From NCBI GenBank assembly GCA_025774805.1, contig JALGZR010000058.1:1-26635 (forward strand): a DNA stretch of 26,635 bases, written 5' to 3'. Made by a program: the position numbers and the translations under genes. Source of the stretch: a bacterium. GTDB taxonomy: Bacteria > ARS69. Each line of letters opens with the position of its first letter. The first letter of the stretch is position 1. Under the pieces are notes generated by a model. The model saw only the letters and a program-made list of their open reading frames with translations. It did not search any database and was not told the origin of the DNA. This document shows positions 5,314 through 26,302 of the stretch, one piece after another.

Positions 5314-6630
5314 TCAACTCATCCCCTGAATCGGGCCGGACCGCACGAGCGGGGGAATCTCCGGCCGTCTCTCGGAAAAGGCCATGGCGCCGAGCAGCCG
5401 CCGCTCGGCGATCTCCGCGTCCTTCTCCGTACGGGCGTGAATCTCGACCAGGGGATCGCCCGTCTCCGCCCGCTCACCCGTCCGGACCCGAAATCGGAAA
5501 CCGACCGCGGGGTCGATCGCCTCGCCGACCCGCGTGCGCCCCGCCCCGAGCGCGTTCGCCGCGAGCCCGACCTCCCGGGTGTCCATTGCCGCCAGCCATC
5601 CCGCCGCCGGGCACTCGAGCGAGCGGACCACGGGCGCGCGCGGGAGGCCGCGTTCCGGGTCCTCGAGTGTTACGGGATCGCCGCCCTGCGCCTCCACCCA
5701 GCGAAGGAAGAGATCGTACGCGGTCCCCTCCGCGAGCGCGCGCTCGACCCGGCGCCGGCCCTCCTCCTCGCTCGCCCCCTCCGCCAGGCGGATCATCTCC
5801 GCCCCGAGCGCCAGGACGAGCTCCCGGACGTCTTCGGGGCCGCCGCCCCGCAGGACCTCCACCGACTCCGCGATCTCGAGCGCGTTCCCCACCGCCCGCC
5901 CCAGCGGCCGCTCCATCGAGGTCACGAACGCGGTGGCCCGCTTGCCGAGCTGGCGGGAGACCTCGACGAGCACCCGGGCGAGCTCCCCCGCCTCCTCCGA
6001 ACCGCGCATGAAGGCCCCCGACCCGGTCTTGACGTCGAGGACGAGGGCGTCGACGCCGGCGGCGAACTTCTTCGAGAGAATGCTCGCCGTGATGAGCGGA
6101 ACGCTCGGCACGGTTCCCGTCACGTCGCGCAGCGCATAGAGACGGGAGTCCGCGGGGGCGAGAGAGGCGTTCGATCCGATGATCGCGAACCCGGTTCTCT
6201 CGAGAACCCGGCGGAAGGCCTCGACGTCGAGATCGGTGCGCAGCCCCGGGATCGACTCGAGCTTGTCGAGCGTTCCGCCGGTGTGCCCGAGACCCCGGCC
6301 GGAGACCATCGGGATGACGACCCCGGCCGAGGCGACGGCGGGAGCGAGAGGGATCGAGACCTTGTCTCCCACCCCGCCGGTGGAGTGCTTGTCCGTCTTG
6401 ACGCCGGGAAGCCGGGACAGATCGAGGATCTCTCCCGACTCCATCATGAGTCGGGTGAACGTCGCCGTCTCCCGCTCGACCATCCCGCGGAAGAGGACCG
6501 CCATGAGCCACGCGGAGATCTGGTAGGGGGGAACGCTCCCGTCGATCAGACCGGCGATCAGCCCGGCGAGCTCTTCCCGGGTGTTCTCCCTTCCGTCCCG
6601 CTTGCGCTCGATGACTTCGGGGAAGTTCAT
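5314..6630 (-). CDS. deoA: thymidine / pyrimidine-nucleoside phosphorylase
   Basis: Splits thymidine or deoxyuridine with phosphate into base plus 2-deoxyribose-1-phosphate in the cytosol; 438 aa. Family blocks are present: KHSTGGVGDKVS (phosphate and metal site), SGRGLGHTGGTLDKLESIPG and LVLDVKTGSGAFM. The C-terminal alpha/beta domain with VGFRFRVRTGE and an EIHA block completes the usual length. The start ATG at 6630 overlaps the deoC stop (ATGA), so it is translationally coupled as the last gene of the alr-deoB-cdd-rpiB-deoC-deoA operon. Whether it prefers thymidine or accepts uridine as well (Pdp type) cannot be read from the sequence. Gene symbol pdp is the alternative. Confidence 0.93.
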   Translation of the reverse strand: MNFPEVIERKRDGRENTREELAGLIAGLIDGSVPPYQISAWLMAVLFRGMVERETATFTRLMMESGEILDLSRLPGVKTDKHSTGGVGDKVSIPLAPAVASAGVVIPMVSGRGLGHTGGTLDKLESIPGLRTDLDVEAFRRVLERTGFAIIGSNASLAPADSRLYALRDVTGTVPSVPLITASILSKKFAAGVDALVLDVKTGSGAFMRGSEEAGELARVLVEVSRQLGKRATAFVTSMERPLGRAVGNALEIAESVEVLRGGGPEDVRELVLALGAEMIRLAEGASEEEGRRRVERALAEGTAYDLFLRWVEAQGGDPVTLEDPERGLPRAPVVRSLECPAAGWLAAMDTREVGLAANALGAGRTRVGEAIDPAVGFRFRVRTGERAETGDPLVEIHARTEKDAEIAERRLLGAMAFSERRPEIPPLVRSGPIQGMS

Positions 6631-7454
6631 CCGGACCAGCCAGCCGCGGCCGCGTCTCCCTGGACGATGGCAAGGGAGGCGCTCGCGCCGAGGCGCGTCG
6701 CCCCGGCCTCGATCATGCGGCGCGCCGACTCGGCATCCCGGATGCCCCCCGCCGCCTTCACTCCCATCTCGGGACCGACGACGCGGCGCATCAGTTGAAC
6801 GTCCTCCACGGTGGCGCCGCCCGGACCGAATCCGGTAGAGGTCTTCACGTAGTCCGCCCCGGCCGCCTTCGCGAGCGCGCACGCCTCCGCCTTCTCCTCG
6901 TCGGTGAGGTACGCGGTCTCCAGGATCACCTTGACCGTGGCCCGGGACCGCGCGGACTCGACCACGCCCCGGATGTCACGCTCGACCGTGCCGTAGTCCT
7001 TCGACTTCAACGCTCCGATGTTCACCACCATGTCGAGCTCGGTGGCCCCGTCGTGGACGGCCCGCCGCCCCTCGAACGCCTTCGTCTCCGGCCGGTTCAT
7101 TCCGTGGGGGAAACCGATCACCGTGCACACGCGGACGTCCGTGTCGGCGAGAAGGTCGGCGCACATCGGCACCCACCAGGGCTGAACGCACACGCTGGCG
7201 AAGCGGTTCTCCCGGGCCTCCGCGCAGAGGCGATCGATCTCCTCTCGGGTGGCGTCGGGCTTGAGAACCGTGTGGTCGATCAGCGAGGCGAGACCGGGGT
7301 CGGTCGTCTCCCCCGGCGCGCCCCCGAGGCGGCAGATGCCGAGATCGCGGCAGAGGTCCGCGAGACCGTCGGCGGGAACGTCCGCGGGAACGCCCTCCCG
7401 CAAAGCGCGCAGAACCTCTTCGGTGATGCGGGCGATGAGCCTCTCGGAGATCAC
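6627..7454 (-). CDS. deoC: deoxyribose-5-phosphate aldolase with N-terminal encapsulation-peptide-like extension
   Basis: Class I aldolase that cleaves 2-deoxyribose-5-phosphate to glyceraldehyde-3-phosphate and acetaldehyde; 275 aa. The catalytic residues are visible: Asp141, Schiff-base Lys204 in VKTSTGFG and Lys233 in GVKAAGG. The catalytic fold begins at about residue 55 (LASLIDHTVLKP), where typical DeoC proteins start at residue 1-5. The extra N-terminus has a short amphipathic helix (hydrophobic at 2, 6, 7, 10, 14, 15, 18) and then a Pro/Gly-containing linker. That architecture is typical of cargo-targeting peptides of bacterial microcompartments. The GTG start at 7454 overlaps the rpiB stop (GTGA) and has GGGAG 8 nt upstream; a start at the core would leave the operon coupling unexplained. 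Confidence 0.93.
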   Translation of the reverse strand: MISERLIARITEEVLRALREGVPADVPADGLADLCRDLGICRLGGAPGETTDPGLASLIDHTVLKPDATREEIDRLCAEARENRFASVCVQPWWVPMCADLLADTDVRVCTVIGFPHGMNRPETKAFEGRRAVHDGATELDMVVNIGALKSKDYGTVERDIRGVVESARSRATVKVILETAYLTDEEKAEACALAKAAGADYVKTSTGFGPGGATVEDVQLMRRVVGPEMGVKAAGGIRDAESARRMIEAGATRLGASASLAIVQGDAAAAGWSG

Positions 7455-7990
7455 GAGTCGAGCTCCCGAATCATCCGGACGCGCCGGAGGTGGCGCCCGC
7501 CCGCGTGCTCGGTGGTCAGCCAGAGGGCGACCATGCGGCGGGCGAGGGCGAGGGGGAGAAACCCGGCACCCAGGGACAGGACGTTCGCGTCGTTGTGCTC
7601 CCGGCTGTTCAGAACGGAGGCGACGTCGTGGCAGACCGCGCAGCGGACTCCCGCAACCTTGTTCGCCGCCATTCCCGAGCCGATCCCCGCTCCGTCGATG
7701 ACGATGCCGGCGTCGCACTTGCCGTCCCTCACCTGTCGGGCCACGGCGAGGGCGAATTCGGGATAGTCGCAGGAATCGCGCGAGCTCGTGCCGCAGTCGA
7801 CCACGGCGTATCCCTTCCTCTCGAGGTAACGCGCGAGGTCCCCCTTCATCTCGTAGCCGCCGTGATCGGAGCCGAGAGCCACCCGCTGCGGCGGCCACCG
7901 GGCGGGGGTCGGTGCCCGGACCTCGACGCGGCGCCTCTCGACCTCGGCCACGACGCGCCGAACGACCTCGGCGACGAGCTCCTCGTTCAT
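7451..7990 (-). CDS. rpiB: RpiB/LacAB-family sugar-phosphate isomerase with encapsulation-peptide-like N-terminus
   Basis: Isomerase of the ribose-5-phosphate isomerase B / galactose-6-phosphate isomerase family; 179 aa. The core starts at residue 36 (RVALGSDHGGYEMK). It continues with DYPEFA, a GAGIGSGMAANK loop, NSREHNDANVLSLG and the C-terminal GGRHLRRV. The active-site Cys of E. coli RpiB (CGTGVG) is replaced by Asp99 (DGAGIG), so the substrate or mechanism may differ. Residues 1-21 form a strongly amphipathic helix (hydrophobic at 5, 6, 9, 10, 13, 14, 17), followed by a Pro-rich linker (APTPARWPP). E. coli RpiB lacks both. The ATG at 7990 follows GGAGGG and overlaps the cdd stop (ATGA). 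The family is certain; ribose-5-phosphate as substrate is less so. Confidence 0.9.
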   Translation of the reverse strand: MNEELVAEVVRRVVAEVERRRVEVRAPTPARWPPQRVALGSDHGGYEMKGDLARYLERKGYAVVDCGTSSRDSCDYPEFALAVARQVRDGKCDAGIVIDGAGIGSGMAANKVAGVRCAVCHDVASVLNSREHNDANVLSLGAGFLPLALARRMVALWLTTEHAGGRHLRRVRMIRELDS

Positions 7991-8427
7991 CGTCCCTCCA
8001 GGTGGAACGCCCGCGGAAGAAGCTCCCCCAGGGTCATCTCGACGGTGCCCTCCGACCCGTCGATCAGGACGGGAACCGACGGTCCCGCGAACTCCCGGAG
8101 AACCTGGCGACACGCGCCGCACGGCCAGGGCATCGCCGGCCCCGGACTGTGAATCGCGATCGCCCTCAGCGGAGAAGACCGCGGATCGACGAGGCCCCGG
8201 GCCCGCGCGGCGAATACCGCGGTCCGCTCGGCGCACACGGAGAGGCCGTACGAGGCGTTCTCCACGTTGACGCCGGTGACGATCGAATCGTCGGCGGTGA
8301 GAAGGGCCGCGCCCACGCGGTATTCGGAGTAGGGAGCGTACGCCCTCGCGATCCCCTCGCGCGCGGCCTCCACCAGAGCCCGGCCCCGTTCTCCGTCCAT
8401 TCCGCGAGTTTCCTCCTTCGCGCTCAT
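7987..8427 (-). CDS. cdd: cytidine deaminase
   Basis: Zinc-dependent deaminase that converts cytidine or deoxycytidine to uridine or deoxyuridine, feeding the phosphorylase DeoA. It is 146 aa from the ATG at 8427. The homotetrameric-type signature is complete: N-V-E-N-A-S-Y, CAERTA (zinc Cys and catalytic Glu) and PCGACRQVL (two zinc Cys). The first ATG overlaps the deoB stop (ATGA). An alternative ATG at 8400 has AAGGAGGA about 11 nt upstream and gives an N-terminus closer to the usual family start; either is possible. Its stop overlaps the rpiB start, so it sits inside the coupled operon. Confidence 0.94.
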   Translation of the reverse strand: MSAKEETRGMDGERGRALVEAAREGIARAYAPYSEYRVGAALLTADDSIVTGVNVENASYGLSVCAERTAVFAARARGLVDPRSSPLRAIAIHSPGPAMPWPCGACRQVLREFAGPSVPVLIDGSEGTVEMTLGELLPRAFHLEGR

Positions 8428-9596
8428 CCGGGCAAGTCCGCCAGGAAGGAAGTGCCGGCCGGGACCGCACCCACTTCGAAGTTCTCCGCCACGGTGGCCC
8501 CGAGATCGGCGAACGTGGACCGGGTTCCCAGGGATACGCCCTCCCCACCCCCCGTCCAGACGAGCAGCGGAACCTCTTCGCGGGAGTGATCGGTGCTCGG
8601 GGTGGTCGGGTCGTTCCCGTGGTCGGCCGTGAACGCGATCAGCGTCCCGTCGGGGGCCGCCCCGACGAGATCGGGGATGCGGGCGTCGAGCGCCTCGAGG
8701 GCCCTCGCCATGCCCTCCGGATCATTCCGGTGTCCGAAGCGCATGTCGAACTCGATCAGATTCACGAAGACGAGACCGGAATCGATCTCGCGTAACGAAC
8801 GCGCCGTCGCGTCGACGCACTCGTCCGTGGGGAGCACGTGTTCGGTGCGGGTGACGCCCCGGCCGGCGAAGATGTCGTCGATCTTCCCGACGGAGACGAC
8901 GTCCCTTCCCGAGGCCGAGACGAGGTCGAGGATGGTCGTTCCGAACGGCTCGAGCGAAAAGTCCCGCCGACGGTTCGTTCGCACGTAGTGCTCCGGACCC
9001 CCCGTGAAGGGCCGCGCGATCACGCGTCCCACCGCGTGCTCGCCCTTCAGCATCCGGCGCGTCTCCTCGCAGATGCAATAGAGCTCGGGGGGCGGAATCG
9101 TCTCCTCGTGGGCGGCGATCTGGAAGACCGAGTCGGCGGAGGTGTAGACGATGGGGCGCCCGGTCCGTTGATGCTCCTCCGCGAGCTCCTGGATGATGGC
9201 CGTTCCCGATGCCGCCACGTTGCCCAGCGCGGGTCTCCCGGCGATCTCCGCGAAGCGTCTCATGACGTCGGAGGGAAAGCCGTCCGGATAGGTCGGCATC
9301 GGACGATCGACCACGAGCCCCGCGATTTCCCAGTGGCCGCTCGTCGTGTCCTTGCCCGCCGACGCCTCCGTCATCCGGCCCCACGAGGCGCCCGGGGAGG
9401 CGCACTCCGGGACCCCCTCGAGATCGAGCACGCGACCGAGCCCGAGCGCCCCGAGACTCGGCAACGCGATTCCCCCTACCGCCAGAGCGACGTTCCCGAG
9501 GGTGTTCGAGCCCTCGTCCCCGAAGGCCGCCGCGTCGGGGGCCCCGCCGACTCCGACCCCGTCCAGCACCACGATCGCCACCCGGGGAAATCGCAT
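8424..9596 (-). CDS. deoB: phosphopentomutase
   Basis: Alkaline-phosphatase-superfamily mutase that interconverts (deoxy)ribose-1-phosphate and (deoxy)ribose-5-phosphate, linking DeoA to DeoC; 390 aa, the usual length. Metal-site and catalytic blocks are visible: VVLDGVGVGGAPDA at the N-terminus, KDTTSGHWE (phosphorylated Thr region), VNLIEFDMRFGHRND, and FTADHGNDPTTPSTDHSREEVPLL near the C-terminus. It starts 3 nt after the alr stop and its own stop overlaps the cdd start, indicating one polycistronic message. Confidence 0.95.
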   Translation of the reverse strand: MRFPRVAIVVLDGVGVGGAPDAAAFGDEGSNTLGNVALAVGGIALPSLGALGLGRVLDLEGVPECASPGASWGRMTEASAGKDTTSGHWEIAGLVVDRPMPTYPDGFPSDVMRRFAEIAGRPALGNVAASGTAIIQELAEEHQRTGRPIVYTSADSVFQIAAHEETIPPPELYCICEETRRMLKGEHAVGRVIARPFTGGPEHYVRTNRRRDFSLEPFGTTILDLVSASGRDVVSVGKIDDIFAGRGVTRTEHVLPTDECVDATARSLREIDSGLVFVNLIEFDMRFGHRNDPEGMARALEALDARIPDLVGAAPDGTLIAFTADHGNDPTTPSTDHSREEVPLLVWTGGGEGVSLGTRSTFADLGATVAENFEVGAVPAGTSFLADLPG

Positions 9597-21471: not shown

Positions 21472-23073
21472 TCACGCGAGCACACCGCGCACCGCGTCGA
21501 TGACGGTGCCGTCGACCCAGTGGATCGTGGCCACGATCTCGTCCGCGAGCTTCGGGGGCGCGGGAGGTCCACCGGTGAGCCTCTCCACGTCCTCCTTGAT
21601 CTCCCGGATGTCGCGGATCGGGAGATCGCTCCCGCGCAGCGCGTCGAGGAGATCCTGACGGCGCGGATTGATCGCGATTCCCCGCTCGGTCGCGACGACG
21701 TCGATCAGCTCCCCCGGTCCGACGAGGGTCGTGACGCGATCGACGAGGACGGGAATCCGGTCGCGTACCGAGGGGACCGCGAGAACTACACACCTCCCGA
21801 AGAGGCAGTTCTGCCACCCGCCGATGCCGTGCAGCAGCTTCCCGTCGGAGTGGGTGACCACGTTGGCGTTGAAGTCGACGTCGACCTCCGTGGCGCCGAG
21901 AACCGTGACGTCGACGAGCGACGCGAAGTTGCCCTTCCCGTGGTAGTTGTAGCTCGTGAAGGGGCTCGTGTTCACGTGGGTCGGGTTCTCGCGCATGGAC
22001 CGGACGCCCTCGAGGTCGAAGGTCTGCCCGTCGAGGATGCAGGGGGTCAGCCCTTCCTCGAGCATCCGGACGAGGTAGCGATTGCTGCCCCCGCGAACGA
22101 AGGACGCCCGGACATCCTCCTCCACGCCGAGGCGGCGCTTCACCTCCGGATCCCGCATCATCTCCCGGAGGAACAGCGCGAACGCGAGCGAGATCCCCCC
22201 CGCGCCCGCCTGGATGCTGAAGCCGGGCCGGAGAATGCCCGCGTCCCGGACGAGCCTGGCGATGTTCTCCGCGATGAGGAGTCGCTCCGGGCTGTTCGTG
22301 ACCCGCGTCGTTCCGGACACGATCTTCGACGGATCGCCGACGCGGTCCACCTCCACCACCTGGTCGACGTAGTTGCCCTGGATCTGCCAGGGGAGACAGG
22401 GAAAGGGAACGAGGTTGTCGGTCACCACGATGACGTGGTCGGCGTACTGACTGTCGGCGAGCGCGAATCCCAGAAGTCCGCAGGCGGACGGACCCCGATC
22501 GCCTGTCGCGTTGCCGAAGGCGTCGGCGGTCGGCGCCGCGATCACCGCGATGTCGATCCGCAGATCGCCGTCCTGAATCGCCTGGTAACGGCCACCGTGG
22601 GAGCGGAGGATCCCCGTTCCCCGCATCCGTCCCGTCGAGCAGAAGTCGCCCAGCGGTCCGTTCATCGAGCCCTCGATGTGGTGGATCACGCCGCTCTCCA
22701 GGTGGCGGATCAGCGGCGCGTGGCAGGGAAACGACGCGCTCGGCGCCCACACGAGGTCCTTCACACCCATCTCCGCCGCGAGATCGAAGATCTGCCGCGC
22801 GATCAGGTCGCCGTCCCGGAAGTGGTGGTGGGTGGAGATCACCATCCCGTCGCGCAGGCCCGCGCTCTCCAGTGCGGTCCGGAGATCGGTCGCGCGCTTG
22901 TCTCCGTCGGCGGGGAAGTCGGCGCACGTCGCGATGGGGGGAGCGTGCTTGTTTCCCTCGGGGCGATACGCGCCGACGCCCCGGAAGGGAACGCGCGCCC
23001 TCCCGTTCACGACCTCCGGAACTTCGCGGCCCGCGGCGTTCGTGACGATCCCGGTCCGGAGCGTCTCAGGCAT
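21472..23073 (-). CDS. citF: citrate lyase alpha subunit (CoA-transferase-type)
   Basis: 533 aa. In citrate or citramalate lyase the alpha subunit moves the acyl-carrier thioester from acetate to the substrate, before the beta subunit cleaves it. The whole length follows the CitF pattern: the N-terminal GVGAYRPEGNKHAPP, THHHFRDGD, IEGSMNGPLGDFCS, QAGAGGISLAF, SPFTSYNYHGKGNFASL, the FNANVVTHSDG(K)LLHGIGGWQN block and the C-terminal ERGIAINPRR. Its ATG at 23073 overlaps the end of the CitDE gene by 8 nt. The ligase and prosthetic-group genes (citC, citX, citG) are absent from the window. Citrate versus citramalate cannot be decided here. Confidence 0.92.
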   Translation of the reverse strand: MPETLRTGIVTNAAGREVPEVVNGRARVPFRGVGAYRPEGNKHAPPIATCADFPADGDKRATDLRTALESAGLRDGMVISTHHHFRDGDLIARQIFDLAAEMGVKDLVWAPSASFPCHAPLIRHLESGVIHHIEGSMNGPLGDFCSTGRMRGTGILRSHGGRYQAIQDGDLRIDIAVIAAPTADAFGNATGDRGPSACGLLGFALADSQYADHVIVVTDNLVPFPCLPWQIQGNYVDQVVEVDRVGDPSKIVSGTTRVTNSPERLLIAENIARLVRDAGILRPGFSIQAGAGGISLAFALFLREMMRDPEVKRRLGVEEDVRASFVRGGSNRYLVRMLEEGLTPCILDGQTFDLEGVRSMRENPTHVNTSPFTSYNYHGKGNFASLVDVTVLGATEVDVDFNANVVTHSDGKLLHGIGGWQNCLFGRCVVLAVPSVRDRIPVLVDRVTTLVGPGELIDVVATERGIAINPRRQDLLDALRGSDLPIRDIREIKEDVERLTGGPPAPPKLADEIVATIHWVDGTVIDAVRGVLA

Positions 23074-24295
23074 CGGACGAGATCTCCTCTCTCGACTTCC
23101 AGTCCGGATCGAGAAGCCCCGACGCGACCGCGAGGTCGACGACCCGCTCCGCCCGCTTCACCACGGGGGGATCGATCATCTTCGAGCCGAGGGAGACGAC
23201 TCCCAGACGCTTCTCCCGGGCCTCGTCGAACGCGCGAACGATCCGCGTCGCCTTCTCGATCTCCTCTCCGCTCGGGGTGAACTCCCGGTGGACGACCCGG
23301 ATCTGCCGAGGGTGGATGCACCCCTTGCCGACGAAGCCGAGCGATTTCGCCTCGCGAACGGCGGCGGCCAATCCCTCCGGGTCGCCGACGTCGGAGTGCA
23401 CCGAGTCGATCGCCTGCACCCCCGCGGCGGCGGCGGCGGCGACGACCGTGGAGCGCGCCCAGAAGCTCTCGCGTCCCTCGGCGCTGCGGGCCGCCCCGAT
23501 GTCCGCGGTGTAGTCCTCGAGGCCGAGCGTGAGCGCGGCGACGGTCGGATGCGCCGAGGCGATCGCCTCCGCCGCGAGCATCCCCTTCCCGCTCTCCAGG
23601 ATCGGCATCAGCCAGGGCGGATCCTCCCCGGCGGCGTCCGCCAGGCTTCCCGCCGCCTCGGCCACCGCGACGATCTCGTCGGGGCTTTCCACCTTCGGGA
23701 TCAGGATCATCTGCGCGCCGTGACCGACCGCGAACGGAAGATCTTCGAGGCCGCGCGGAAGCTGATTGAGACGCACCATCCGCTCGGACCCGCCCCAGTC
23801 GAGAAACCGGAGGGCGTTGCGCACGAGGACGCGCGCCGCGTCCTTCTCCGGGGGCGCGACGCTGTCCTCGAGATCGAGGATCACCCCGTCGGCTCCGTAG
23901 AGACCGGCGTTCAGCATGAACTTCGGGGACGAGCCGGGAAGGTAGAGACGGGAGCGACGGAATCGATCCCTCGCGCTCGGACCGGTGTTGGCCTCGAGAC
24001 GATCGGGAAGGACCGCGGCGGTCCGGTCGTCGCCGAGGCTCCGCACCGCGGCTTCGAGCCGCGCGGCGAGCACGAAGGGAAGGGCTCCGCCGTCCTCGAC
24101 CTCGAGGGCGGCGTGATCGCATCCCAGCGTGCGGCAACCCTCCTCGAGCTGGCGGCGGATCGCGTCGCCGTACATCCCCGCAACCTTGCTCGTCAGGGCG
24201 ATCTCGATTCCCCCGCTCTCCCGCGGCCGGATCCGCACCCAGGCGTCGGAGCGGACTTCCGCTCCCCGCGGTCCGGCCTCTCCGACCGCACTCAC
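23066..24295 (-). CDS. citE: CitD-CitE fusion: citrate lyase acyl carrier domain plus beta subunit
   Basis: 409 aa in two domains. Residues about 11-88 match the gamma subunit CitD (WVRIRP, IEIALTSKVAGMYGDAIRR, VEDGGALPFVLAARLEAAV). Residues about 114-409 are the HpcH/HpaI-fold beta subunit CitE (RSRLYLPGSSPKFM, GVILDLEDSV at 138-147, the LIPKVESPDE block, GLEDYTADIG, KGCIHPRQI). CitD and CitE are normally separate proteins. The carrier Ser region reads VRSD where CitD usually has ESGD or ESSD; Ser16 next to Asp17 is the only candidate attachment site. The GTG at 24295 overlaps the stop of the aconitase-family gene (GTGA), and the 3' end overlaps citF. The fusion is one uninterrupted frame. 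Confidence 0.9.
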   Translation of the reverse strand: MSAVGEAGPRGAEVRSDAWVRIRPRESGGIEIALTSKVAGMYGDAIRRQLEEGCRTLGCDHAALEVEDGGALPFVLAARLEAAVRSLGDDRTAAVLPDRLEANTGPSARDRFRRSRLYLPGSSPKFMLNAGLYGADGVILDLEDSVAPPEKDAARVLVRNALRFLDWGGSERMVRLNQLPRGLEDLPFAVGHGAQMILIPKVESPDEIVAVAEAAGSLADAAGEDPPWLMPILESGKGMLAAEAIASAHPTVAALTLGLEDYTADIGAARSAEGRESFWARSTVVAAAAAAGVQAIDSVHSDVGDPEGLAAAVREAKSLGFVGKGCIHPRQIRVVHREFTPSGEEIEKATRIVRAFDEAREKRLGVVSLGSKMIDPPVVKRAERVVDLAVASGLLDPDWKSREEISSDA

Positions 24296-26238
24296 GCCGA
24301 CGTCTCCCGGACCAGCGCCTCGGCGCCGCCGGCCACCACGAGCCGCTGGGGAACTTCTCCGAGTCGCGGGAAGGGGAAGACCCTCTCCCCCACCCGGATC
24401 ACCGCGGCACGGAAGTCGACGACGGCGTGCCGACCCGTGCGCAGCGTGAGACCGTCCTCGCGCGAGAGGTCCTCGGCGAGGAAGTCGACGAGAGGAGCGC
24501 ACTCGAGCAGCGGGAACCCGTTGTTGAAGGCGTTTCGCTTGTAGGTCTGCGAGAAAGAGCCGGCGATCACCATCGGGATCCCGAAGAACTTGATCGCGGT
24601 GGCCGCCTGCTCCCGGCTCGAGCCCGATCCGAAGTTCCGGCCCCCCACGAGAAGATCTCCCGGTCGCGCGACGCTCCGGAACTCGGGATCGTAGTTGCGG
24701 AAGACGTGCTCGGCCATCTCGTCCGGTCCGAGGTCGTCCCGGTAGGTGACGTCCTTGCCGTAGATGCCGTCGGTGTTCATGTTGTCGCAGGGCAGATACA
24801 GGAGCTCCCCTTCGACCGTCGCCGGGAAGCCGGGCAGGATCTCGGTCTCCTCTCCCCCGTCCTGGGAGGGCTTGGGCGGCGCCACCGTGATGTCGGTGAC
24901 GACGGCGCGCGATTCGAACTCCTCGGGACCGGTGATCCGGCCGGCGAGCGCGGACGCCGCCACGACCGCCGGGCTCGCCAGGTAGCACTCCGACTCCCGC
25001 GACCCCATGCGACCCCTGAAGTTGCGGTTCGTGGCCGAGATTCCGACCTCGCCCGCCTCCAGCGTCCCCTGCCCGAGCCCGATGCACGGCCCGCATCCGG
25101 GGGGCAGCGCCTTCGCCCCCGCGGCAAGAAGGTCGTCCCACGCCCCGAGACGCTTCGCCTCCTCCTCGACCGTCGCGCTCGCCGCCGCGACGTAGAACTC
25201 GACCCCGTCGGCGACCCGCTTCCCCTTCACGACGCGTCCCGCCTGCACGAGATCCTCGACCCGCGAGTTCACGCAGGAGAGGAGGTAGGCCTTGTTCACC
25301 CGGATGCCCCGCTTCGCGATCTCCGGAAGAGGGTGGACCCGCTTCACCTCGTTCGGCCCGGCGACGTGAGGAATGACGCTCCCCAGATCGAACGTGATCC
25401 GTTTCGCGTAGAAGGCGTCGGGATCCGCCCCGAGACCGTCCGCGGCGAGCGCGTCGATCGTCTCGGCCCGCAGGCGCGGATTCGCGTCCCCGCGGGTCGC
25501 GAGCGCCGCCGCCCGCGCGCGGAGCCACGTCTCGAGCAGGTCGTCGAACGGGAAGACGCCGGCCAGCGCCCCCCACTCGGTCGTCATGTTCGCGATCGTG
25601 AGGCGCTGATCGATCGAGAGCGTGGAGACGCCCTCTCCCGCGAACTCGATCGCGTGGTTGAGGACCTCGTCCCCCCGAAACGCGCCGATGAGCGAGAGGA
25701 TCACGTCCTTGCCCACGACGCCCTCCCGCAACCGCCCTCGAAGCGTGACGAGGGCCACCGGGGGAACTTCCCACCAGGTCTCCCCGGTCGCCCAGATCGC
25801 GGCGGCATCCGTCCGGACGACCGGGGTCCCGACGGCGGCCAGGGCGCCGTAAAGATTCGAGTGGGAGTCGGACGCCACGACGAACGTCCCGGGATGGACG
25901 AATCCCTCCTCGGCCATGATCTGGTGACCGATCCCCTGCTTCGCCGGATAGAACGCGATGCCGTGCTCTTCGGCGAAGTTCCGGATGGCCTCGTACTTCG
26001 CGAGGTTTTCGGGGCTCTCGTTCTGGATGTCGTGATCGAGAACGAAGACGGGCTGATCGGGATCGTGTATGCGCCTCGCACCGATCGACCGGAACTTGGG
26101 AATCACCGCCCCCGTGTTGTCGTGGGTCATCACGTGAAACGGGCGGATGCGGACGACGTCCCCCGAGCGAACCTCACGGTCCGCCGGCCAGCCGACGGCG
26201 AACCGCTGCGTGATCTTTTCCACGAATGTCCGTCCCAC
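24292..26238 (-). CDS. single-chain aconitase-superfamily hydratase, LYS4 (homoaconitase)-like
   Basis: 648 aa iron-sulfur hydro-lyase. The 4Fe-4S cysteines are Cys322 (SCVNSR), Cys382 and Cys385 (GCGPCIGLG). Other blocks are VASDSHSNLYG, RTDAAAIWATGETWW, ISATNRNFRGRMGS, NMNTDGIYGKDVTY and the swivel-domain NFGSGSSREQAATA. From memory the whole chain follows fungal mitochondrial homoaconitase Lys4 far more closely than bacterial AcnA, AcnB or LeuC/D: IANMTTEWGAL, GIGHQIMAEEG and LDHDIQN are shared. Substrate could be aconitate, homoaconitate or mesaconate. The GTG at 26238 is chosen for GGAGGG 6 nt upstream and fit to the family N-terminus. It is the first gene of an operon with CitDE and CitF. 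Confidence 0.88.
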   Translation of the reverse strand: MGRTFVEKITQRFAVGWPADREVRSGDVVRIRPFHVMTHDNTGAVIPKFRSIGARRIHDPDQPVFVLDHDIQNESPENLAKYEAIRNFAEEHGIAFYPAKQGIGHQIMAEEGFVHPGTFVVASDSHSNLYGALAAVGTPVVRTDAAAIWATGETWWEVPPVALVTLRGRLREGVVGKDVILSLIGAFRGDEVLNHAIEFAGEGVSTLSIDQRLTIANMTTEWGALAGVFPFDDLLETWLRARAAALATRGDANPRLRAETIDALAADGLGADPDAFYAKRITFDLGSVIPHVAGPNEVKRVHPLPEIAKRGIRVNKAYLLSCVNSRVEDLVQAGRVVKGKRVADGVEFYVAAASATVEEEAKRLGAWDDLLAAGAKALPPGCGPCIGLGQGTLEAGEVGISATNRNFRGRMGSRESECYLASPAVVAASALAGRITGPEEFESRAVVTDITVAPPKPSQDGGEETEILPGFPATVEGELLYLPCDNMNTDGIYGKDVTYRDDLGPDEMAEHVFRNYDPEFRSVARPGDLLVGGRNFGSGSSREQAATAIKFFGIPMVIAGSFSQTYKRNAFNNGFPLLECAPLVDFLAEDLSREDGLTLRTGRHAVVDFRAAVIRVGERVFPFPRLGEVPQRLVVAGGAEALVRETSA

Positions 26239-26261
26239 GGACTTCCCTCCACTCCGGGCCG

Positions 26262-26290
26262 AATCTAGCAGTGAGATTGGGCCGGAGCAA
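26262..26290 (-). promoter_or_regulatory. promoter of the aconitase-like/citDE/citF operon
   Basis: On the minus strand TTGCTC (26285-26290), a 17-nt spacer and TAGATT (26262-26267) lie 24 nt before the GTG start. The -10 hexamer is identical to that of the rRNA promoter. Confidence 0.6.
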
Positions 26291-26302
26291 GGCAACGCTC
26301 GG

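Follow-up and report, generated by a model that had tools for sequence, protein, structure and literature searches.

Why would an RpiB-type isomerase, encoded in an ordinary-looking deo operon, begin with a helix of the kind that marks cargo enzymes of bacterial microcompartments (BMCs), and where would the shell be encoded? The window, by which we mean the whole stretch of DNA analysed (26,635 nt), is contig C254 (26.6 kb) of genome G000, and the assemblies compared below are MAGs. Sequence comparison suggests that rpiB and deoC very probably encode cargo of a metabolosome of the sugar-phosphate-utilising (SPU) type, with the shell encoded on another contig of the same genome, C19. The genes run in the order deoB-cdd-rpiB-deoC-deoA on the minus strand, and every junction is a 4-nt overlap, so that the operon is translationally coupled; within it, no terminator-like sites and a single, weak promoter-like site were found. 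The features are as follows.

8424..9596, minus strand: deoB, phosphopentomutase, untagged
7987..8427, minus strand: cdd, cytidine deaminase, untagged, with 4-nt overlaps with deoB and rpiB
7451..7990, minus strand: rpiB-like gene, 179 aa, ATG to TGA, PF02502, with Asp99 for the catalytic Cys and Ala101 for the Thr two residues on
7928..7990, minus strand: encapsulation-peptide-like tag of RpiB, residues 1-21, MNEELVAEVVRRVVAEVERRR
7886..7927, minus strand: Pro-rich linker of RpiB, residues 22-35, VEVRAPTPARWPPQ
6627..7454, minus strand: deoC, 275 aa, PF01791, lysine motif VKTSTGF kept, with a GTG start that overlaps the rpiB stop (GTGA)
7398..7454, minus strand: encapsulation-peptide-like tag of DeoC, residues 1-19, MISERLIARITEEVLRALR, which fits the SPU DeoC tag LVExITREVLxAL
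5314..6630, minus strand: deoA, pyrimidine-nucleoside (thymidine) phosphorylase, untagged, with a 4-nt overlap with deoC

The sequence-only reading had described RpiB as a 21-residue amphipathic helix, a Pro-rich linker and an enzyme core from residue 36, and this description holds in each part. Hydrophobic residues occupy positions 5, 6, 9, 10, 13, 14 and 17, and AlphaFold2, given 23 aligned sequences, predicts with high confidence a helix at residues 3-23. Residues 22-35 contain four prolines and have a pLDDT of about 55, the first core strand lies at residue 36, and the RpiB/LacAB family models match from residue 36 (PF02502 from 37). The N-terminus thus has the form of an encapsulation peptide, a terminal helix of about 18 residues with a hydrophobic face followed by a disordered linker, as in PduP and PduD, although the enzymes here are others and each enzyme type has its own tag consensus.

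It could still be argued that the extension serves no function and is a product of chance or of a misplaced start, given that the hydrophobic moment of the helix alone is within chance (p = 0.115 against shuffles), for which reason we dropped it as proof of a tag. We give this explanation next to no credence, as several other observations speak against it. The rpiB ATG has a Shine-Dalgarno-like GGAGGG just 5′ of it and shares the 4 nt ATGA with the end of cdd, so that residue 1 is a credible start. The tag is kept in four genera, with L5, V9, V10, R11, R12 and V13 invariant in all four same-family RpiBs, and AlphaFold2 predicts it to be helical. Furthermore, in a 16-column profile trained on 30 RpiB N-termini, all from other phyla (29 found by automatic search and the tag of L101 by hand), the window RpiB tag scores 23.2 bits, which none of 3000 shuffles reached. 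This score is attained by 24 of 985 background N-termini, a figure that is not a clean error rate, since these sequences resemble tagged BMC cargo and are mostly the training RpiBs themselves; judging by length and sequence, the high scorers outside the training set, from 23.2 bits to slightly less, include what are probably AldDHs (of about 480 aa), DeoCs and PduL-like proteins. Within the family, the RpiB tag of G004 is weak in the profile (10.3 bits). The proposal that RpiB bears a microcompartment-style targeting helix is therefore well founded, as the tag is both kept in the family and, in the alignment that had been suggested, matched by the RpiB tags of shell-linked SPU loci in other phyla.

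DeoC carries a second tag, MISERLIARITEEVLRALR, which the sequence-only reading overlooked. Its hydrophobic moment exceeds that of shuffles (p = 0.010), and its low score in the RpiB-trained profile (9.3 bits) is explained by DeoC having a consensus of its own: 33 DeoCs of SPU loci, picked by motif search, share a consensus like LVExITREVLxAL, and the tag in the window's family reads REELIxxITEEVxRAL. A profile scan of the N-termini of DeoA, DeoB and Cdd found no tag. The same profile also picks the N-terminus of an AldDH (17.2 bits) and the C-terminus of a class II aldolase (19.4 bits), both encoded on C19.

It is on C19 that the shell genes lie. The Pfam families BMC and EutN_CcmL, searched genome-wide, match this contig alone, so that C254 holds no shell domain, just as had been claimed for the window along with the prediction that the shell would be encoded elsewhere. 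The locus (L008, C19:6000-25900) contains, in order, BMC-H, BMC-H, BMC-P, AldDH, a PduS/RnfC-like Fe-S protein, BMC-T, BMC-P, BMC-P and the class II aldolase, that is, a full shell complement of two BMC-H, one BMC-T and three BMC-P genes. The AldDH is of the CoA-acylating EutE/PduP kind (NF011927, 618 bits against a cut-off of 403) and has an N-terminal tag, while the aldolase has a C-terminal one. We inferred that the RpiB and DeoC tags load this shell. The deo operon had been called a satellite cargo operon; "cargo operon" stands, but in the published catalogue a satellite locus is one that contains shell genes (PMC8217296), and the operon on C254 is enzyme-only, without the one or more shell genes that define a satellite locus in the sense of Sutter 2021.

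Given that the contamination of the bin is 5.06%, we considered whether the shell contig might be a contaminant. This was ruled out by the similarity of both loci to those of the same family, by tetranucleotide composition (r = 0.993 between the window and the C19 locus, with GC of 0.69 and 0.70) and by the same split in G002. On C19, an 86.6-kb contig, 16 kb separate the shell locus from the closer end. In G002, which is 100% complete with 1% contamination in 60 contigs, C35 carries the tagged deo operon and C5 the shell locus, which lies at least 45 kb from the contig ends; no rpiB is present on C5. G004 shows the same arrangement (deo operon on C256, shell on C260), although its contigs of about 10 kb make it less decisive. 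Of the other two same-family genomes compared with G000, G001 (67% complete) has shell genes and no detected RpiB, and G003 (82% complete) has the tagged operon with no shell, BMC AldDH or MurJ detected. The latter might look like the shell-less relative with the same N-terminus that would have spoken against the proposal, and it is the sole such case. However, in G000, G002 and G004 the shell locus has MurJ at its flank, in G001 MurJ adjoins BMC-P genes, and the absence of MurJ from G003 indicates that this region is missing from that assembly, for which reason we rejected G003 as a counterexample. Nor did a complete genome of the family prove to be without shell genes: G000 has the full locus on C19, and the complete G002 shows the same split.

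A wider scan was queried with eight RpiBs that have Asp in place of the catalytic Cys (Asp-type), so that its ranking favours Asp-type cores, whereas shell association was not selected for. It gave 80 loci, of which 79 were Asp-type, 56 had a shell gene within the locus and 71 had DeoC. The RpiB N-terminus was a tag in 32, a EutQ-N-like domain, assigned by a short motif, in 23, and neither in 25; the 32 tags are a further sign that the helix is more than a product of chance. In these roughly 23 SPU RpiBs (L079, L082, L085, L087, L096, L105 and others), a domain of about 50 aa replaces the short helix; we take it to resemble the start of EutQ, Pfam gave no significant match for the two examples searched, and it is possibly another cargo-loading domain. 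RpiB and DeoC share one frame in at least 13 of the 80 loci (L086, L090, L092, L113, L116, L118, L120, L126, L129, L131, L133, L138 and L150), and this fusion is thus wider than the Marinimicrobia case reported in 2014.

Of the Asp-type loci, 26 have no BMC-H/T gene linked to them; for 24 of these, the genome has one elsewhere. Altogether, 27 genomes were checked, nearly all chosen because BMC-H/T had not been found near RpiB, and 25 of them, including that of the Cys-type outlier L154, have BMC-H/T elsewhere. In G060, G062, G065, G066 and G068, contig position makes the separation of RpiB and shell clear, and in the single-contig Eisenbacteria genome CP070702 (G069, L103), a lone BMC-P gene is found 3 kb from a tagged RpiB, but the main shell locus is 1.29 Mb away from it. 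Two apparent counterexamples were set aside: in G083, the contig that carries RpiB is 7.6 kb long and ends about 0.5 kb from it, and the related L112 has shell genes in its locus, and G085, in which no BMC-H was found, has three BMC-P genes adjoining RpiB.

These counts bear on the possibility that the helices do no more than hold the enzymes together in the cytosol, as a complex or condensate (a metabolon), with RpiB and DeoC outside the shell. Encapsulation peptides can drive condensation without a shell (PMC12339742), and both the translational coupling of the operon and the RpiB-DeoC fusions would suit such an assembly. Nevertheless, Asp-type RpiB is nearly confined to shell-bearing genomes (seven of eight, against three of 22 for other RpiBs; Fisher p = 0.0004, kinship uncorrected), as also seen in the 24 of 26 unlinked loci, and we regard a shell-free assembly as very improbable.

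As the sequence-only reading stated, the published BMC catalogue includes an SPU type with RpiB and DeoC: the name was given in 2014 to loci that hold DeoC, RpiB and AldDH (PMC4207490), and more than 280 such loci were known by 2021 (PMC8217296). G000 has what characterises this type, namely DeoC (PF01791), RpiB (PF02502, Asp-type), a CoA-acylating AldDH, a BMC-H/T/P shell with three BMC-P genes and tagged cargo. What differs is that DeoC and RpiB share their operon with deoA, deoB and cdd and with no shell gene, and that this operon is not linked to the shell locus. As the signature enzymes and the shell genes are on separate contigs, in G000 as in G002, we consider this a split variant that belongs to the SPU type by content only. 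The Eisenbacteria illustrate both arrangements. CSMAG_2930 has Cdd-RpiB-DeoC-DeoA on one contig and, on a second one, a shell locus whose nine genes follow the order of C19, while in L086 the signature enzymes share a locus with shell genes, and RS_16_23 unites RpiB, DeoC and shell, AldDH and class II aldolase genes of like kinds in a single locus.

The class II aldolase on C19 counts against the SPU assignment, as it means that another substrate may be primary. The C19 shell could belong in the first place to a metabolosome built around this aldolase, one that resembles the PVM, ACI or HO types and takes a ketose or deoxyhexose phosphate, with DeoC and RpiB as guests that share the AldDH. A C-terminal tag on this aldolase is also a feature of ACI loci (PMC8217296), the closest natural solved structure to the C19 BMC-H is HO-5815, and the SPU-like loci of Axen pair RpiB with a class II aldolase (PMC4207490). 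In HO-type genomes, DeoC lies away from the shell locus, in some with an EP-like N-terminus (PMC8217296), and the likeness extends to the aldolase and the BMC-P triplet. Here, in contrast, RpiB is tagged too, and the structure nearest to the BMC-T is the PduT-like 3nwg, not one of the HO BMC-T structures. Moreover, the single locus of RS_16_23 indicates that a class II aldolase is compatible with the SPU type, and we noticed neither fucose nor rhamnose genes in the stretch of C19 that was read. We therefore hold a primarily class II aldolase shell to be unlikely, if worth keeping in mind.

A metabolosome that serves deoxyribonucleosides, with its signature enzymes in the shell-less deo operon, is thus the most likely reading. 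The sequences themselves show the tags and how they are conserved, the shell locus, and that tagged enzymes and shell co-occur yet are encoded apart; the flux through the predicted pathway is inferred. In the cytosol, DeoA would convert deoxyribonucleosides to deoxyribose-1-phosphate, from which DeoB would make deoxyribose-5-phosphate. The sugar phosphate would then enter the shell, where the helices would have gathered the enzymes and bound them to it. Inside, DeoC would act together with the tagged AldDH from C19, which would turn acetaldehyde into acetyl-CoA, so that acetaldehyde would be kept out of the cytosol. Cofactor recycling is left unexplained by the C19 locus, in which only the PduS-like protein would serve and no phosphotransacylase (PTAC) or alcohol dehydrogenase (AlcDH) was seen.

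The role of RpiB in such a pathway might be ribose-5-phosphate (R5P) isomerisation with Asp as the base, or another step. In RpiB, Cys66 is the proton-abstracting base, Thr68 its proton-transfer partner and His99 the ring opener (E. coli numbering; PMC4783025, PMC3755991). The window RpiB passes the equivalog cut-off of TIGR01120 (143.0 against 138.65), yet it has Asp99 and Ala101 in the places of Cys66 and Thr68, and IDGAG where the Clostridium thermocellum enzyme has ICGTG; given the change from Cys to Asp, R5P isomerase activity is not to be assumed. Each of the 61 Asp-type rows that aligned cleanly retains His132, Asn133, Arg166, His167 and Arg170; the rows outside the 61 are mostly RpiB-DeoC fusions misplaced by the alignment. 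In the tree, a branch with support of 99/97 splits off the Cys-type RpiBs, and the family RpiBs fall among SPU RpiBs, with two Eisenbacteria RpiBs as neighbours and a bootstrap that is not fully settled. All five family genomes also encode RpiA, so that RpiB need not serve the cytosol. On the basis of the Asp/Ala active site, the kept ring-opening residues and this presence of RpiA, RpiB looks specialised. One possibility is that SPU organelles use their RpiB not as an R5P isomerase but to open the ring of deoxyribose-5-phosphate and pass the linear aldehyde to DeoC. The isomerisation residues are replaced while the ring-opening His and the phosphate-binding Arg are kept, DeoC is fused or co-translated, and 2-deoxyribose lacks the C2 hydroxyl for an aldose-ketose isomerisation; even so, we think it a doubtful proposal.

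This analysis adds three points on the SPU type. Its gene set is split here, with RpiB and DeoC both tagged and encoded in a deo operon of enzymes only; the arrangement recurs in other genomes; and the RpiB has an Asp/Ala active site. In the literature under open licence, we found no description of any of the three. Given that the catalogue gathered its genes from a range of 12 ORFs around each shell gene (PMC8217296), it would miss such an operon. Catalogues built on shell-adjacent genes will thus pass over tagged enzymes in ordinary-looking distant operons, with the consequence that the metabolic reach of these organelles in uncultured phyla is underestimated and that shells are typed without their real signature enzymes. 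Tag profiles specific to RpiB and DeoC, together with the Asp signature, offer a way to find such operons, and the Asp/Ala active site raises the question of why an "isomerase" should be a signature enzyme of a deoxyribose organelle.

Two other regions of the window deserve mention. At the contig end (1-726, minus strand) there is a partial 16S rRNA gene, about 20% distant from Eisenbacteria, in which some 160 nt near position 388 are absent relative to G002, perhaps through assembly collapse or a real deletion. The 16S distance, the high GC and a phylum that consists of one family would together suit Ca. Effluviviacota (PMC11323493) as a tentative placement of the host. At 21472-26295 (minus strand), an aconitase gene, a frame joining a CitD-like acyl-carrier domain (PF06857) and a CitE-like lyase (PF03328), and CitF follow in a row, that is, a citrate lyase set adjoining aconitase with its gamma and beta subunits apparently fused.
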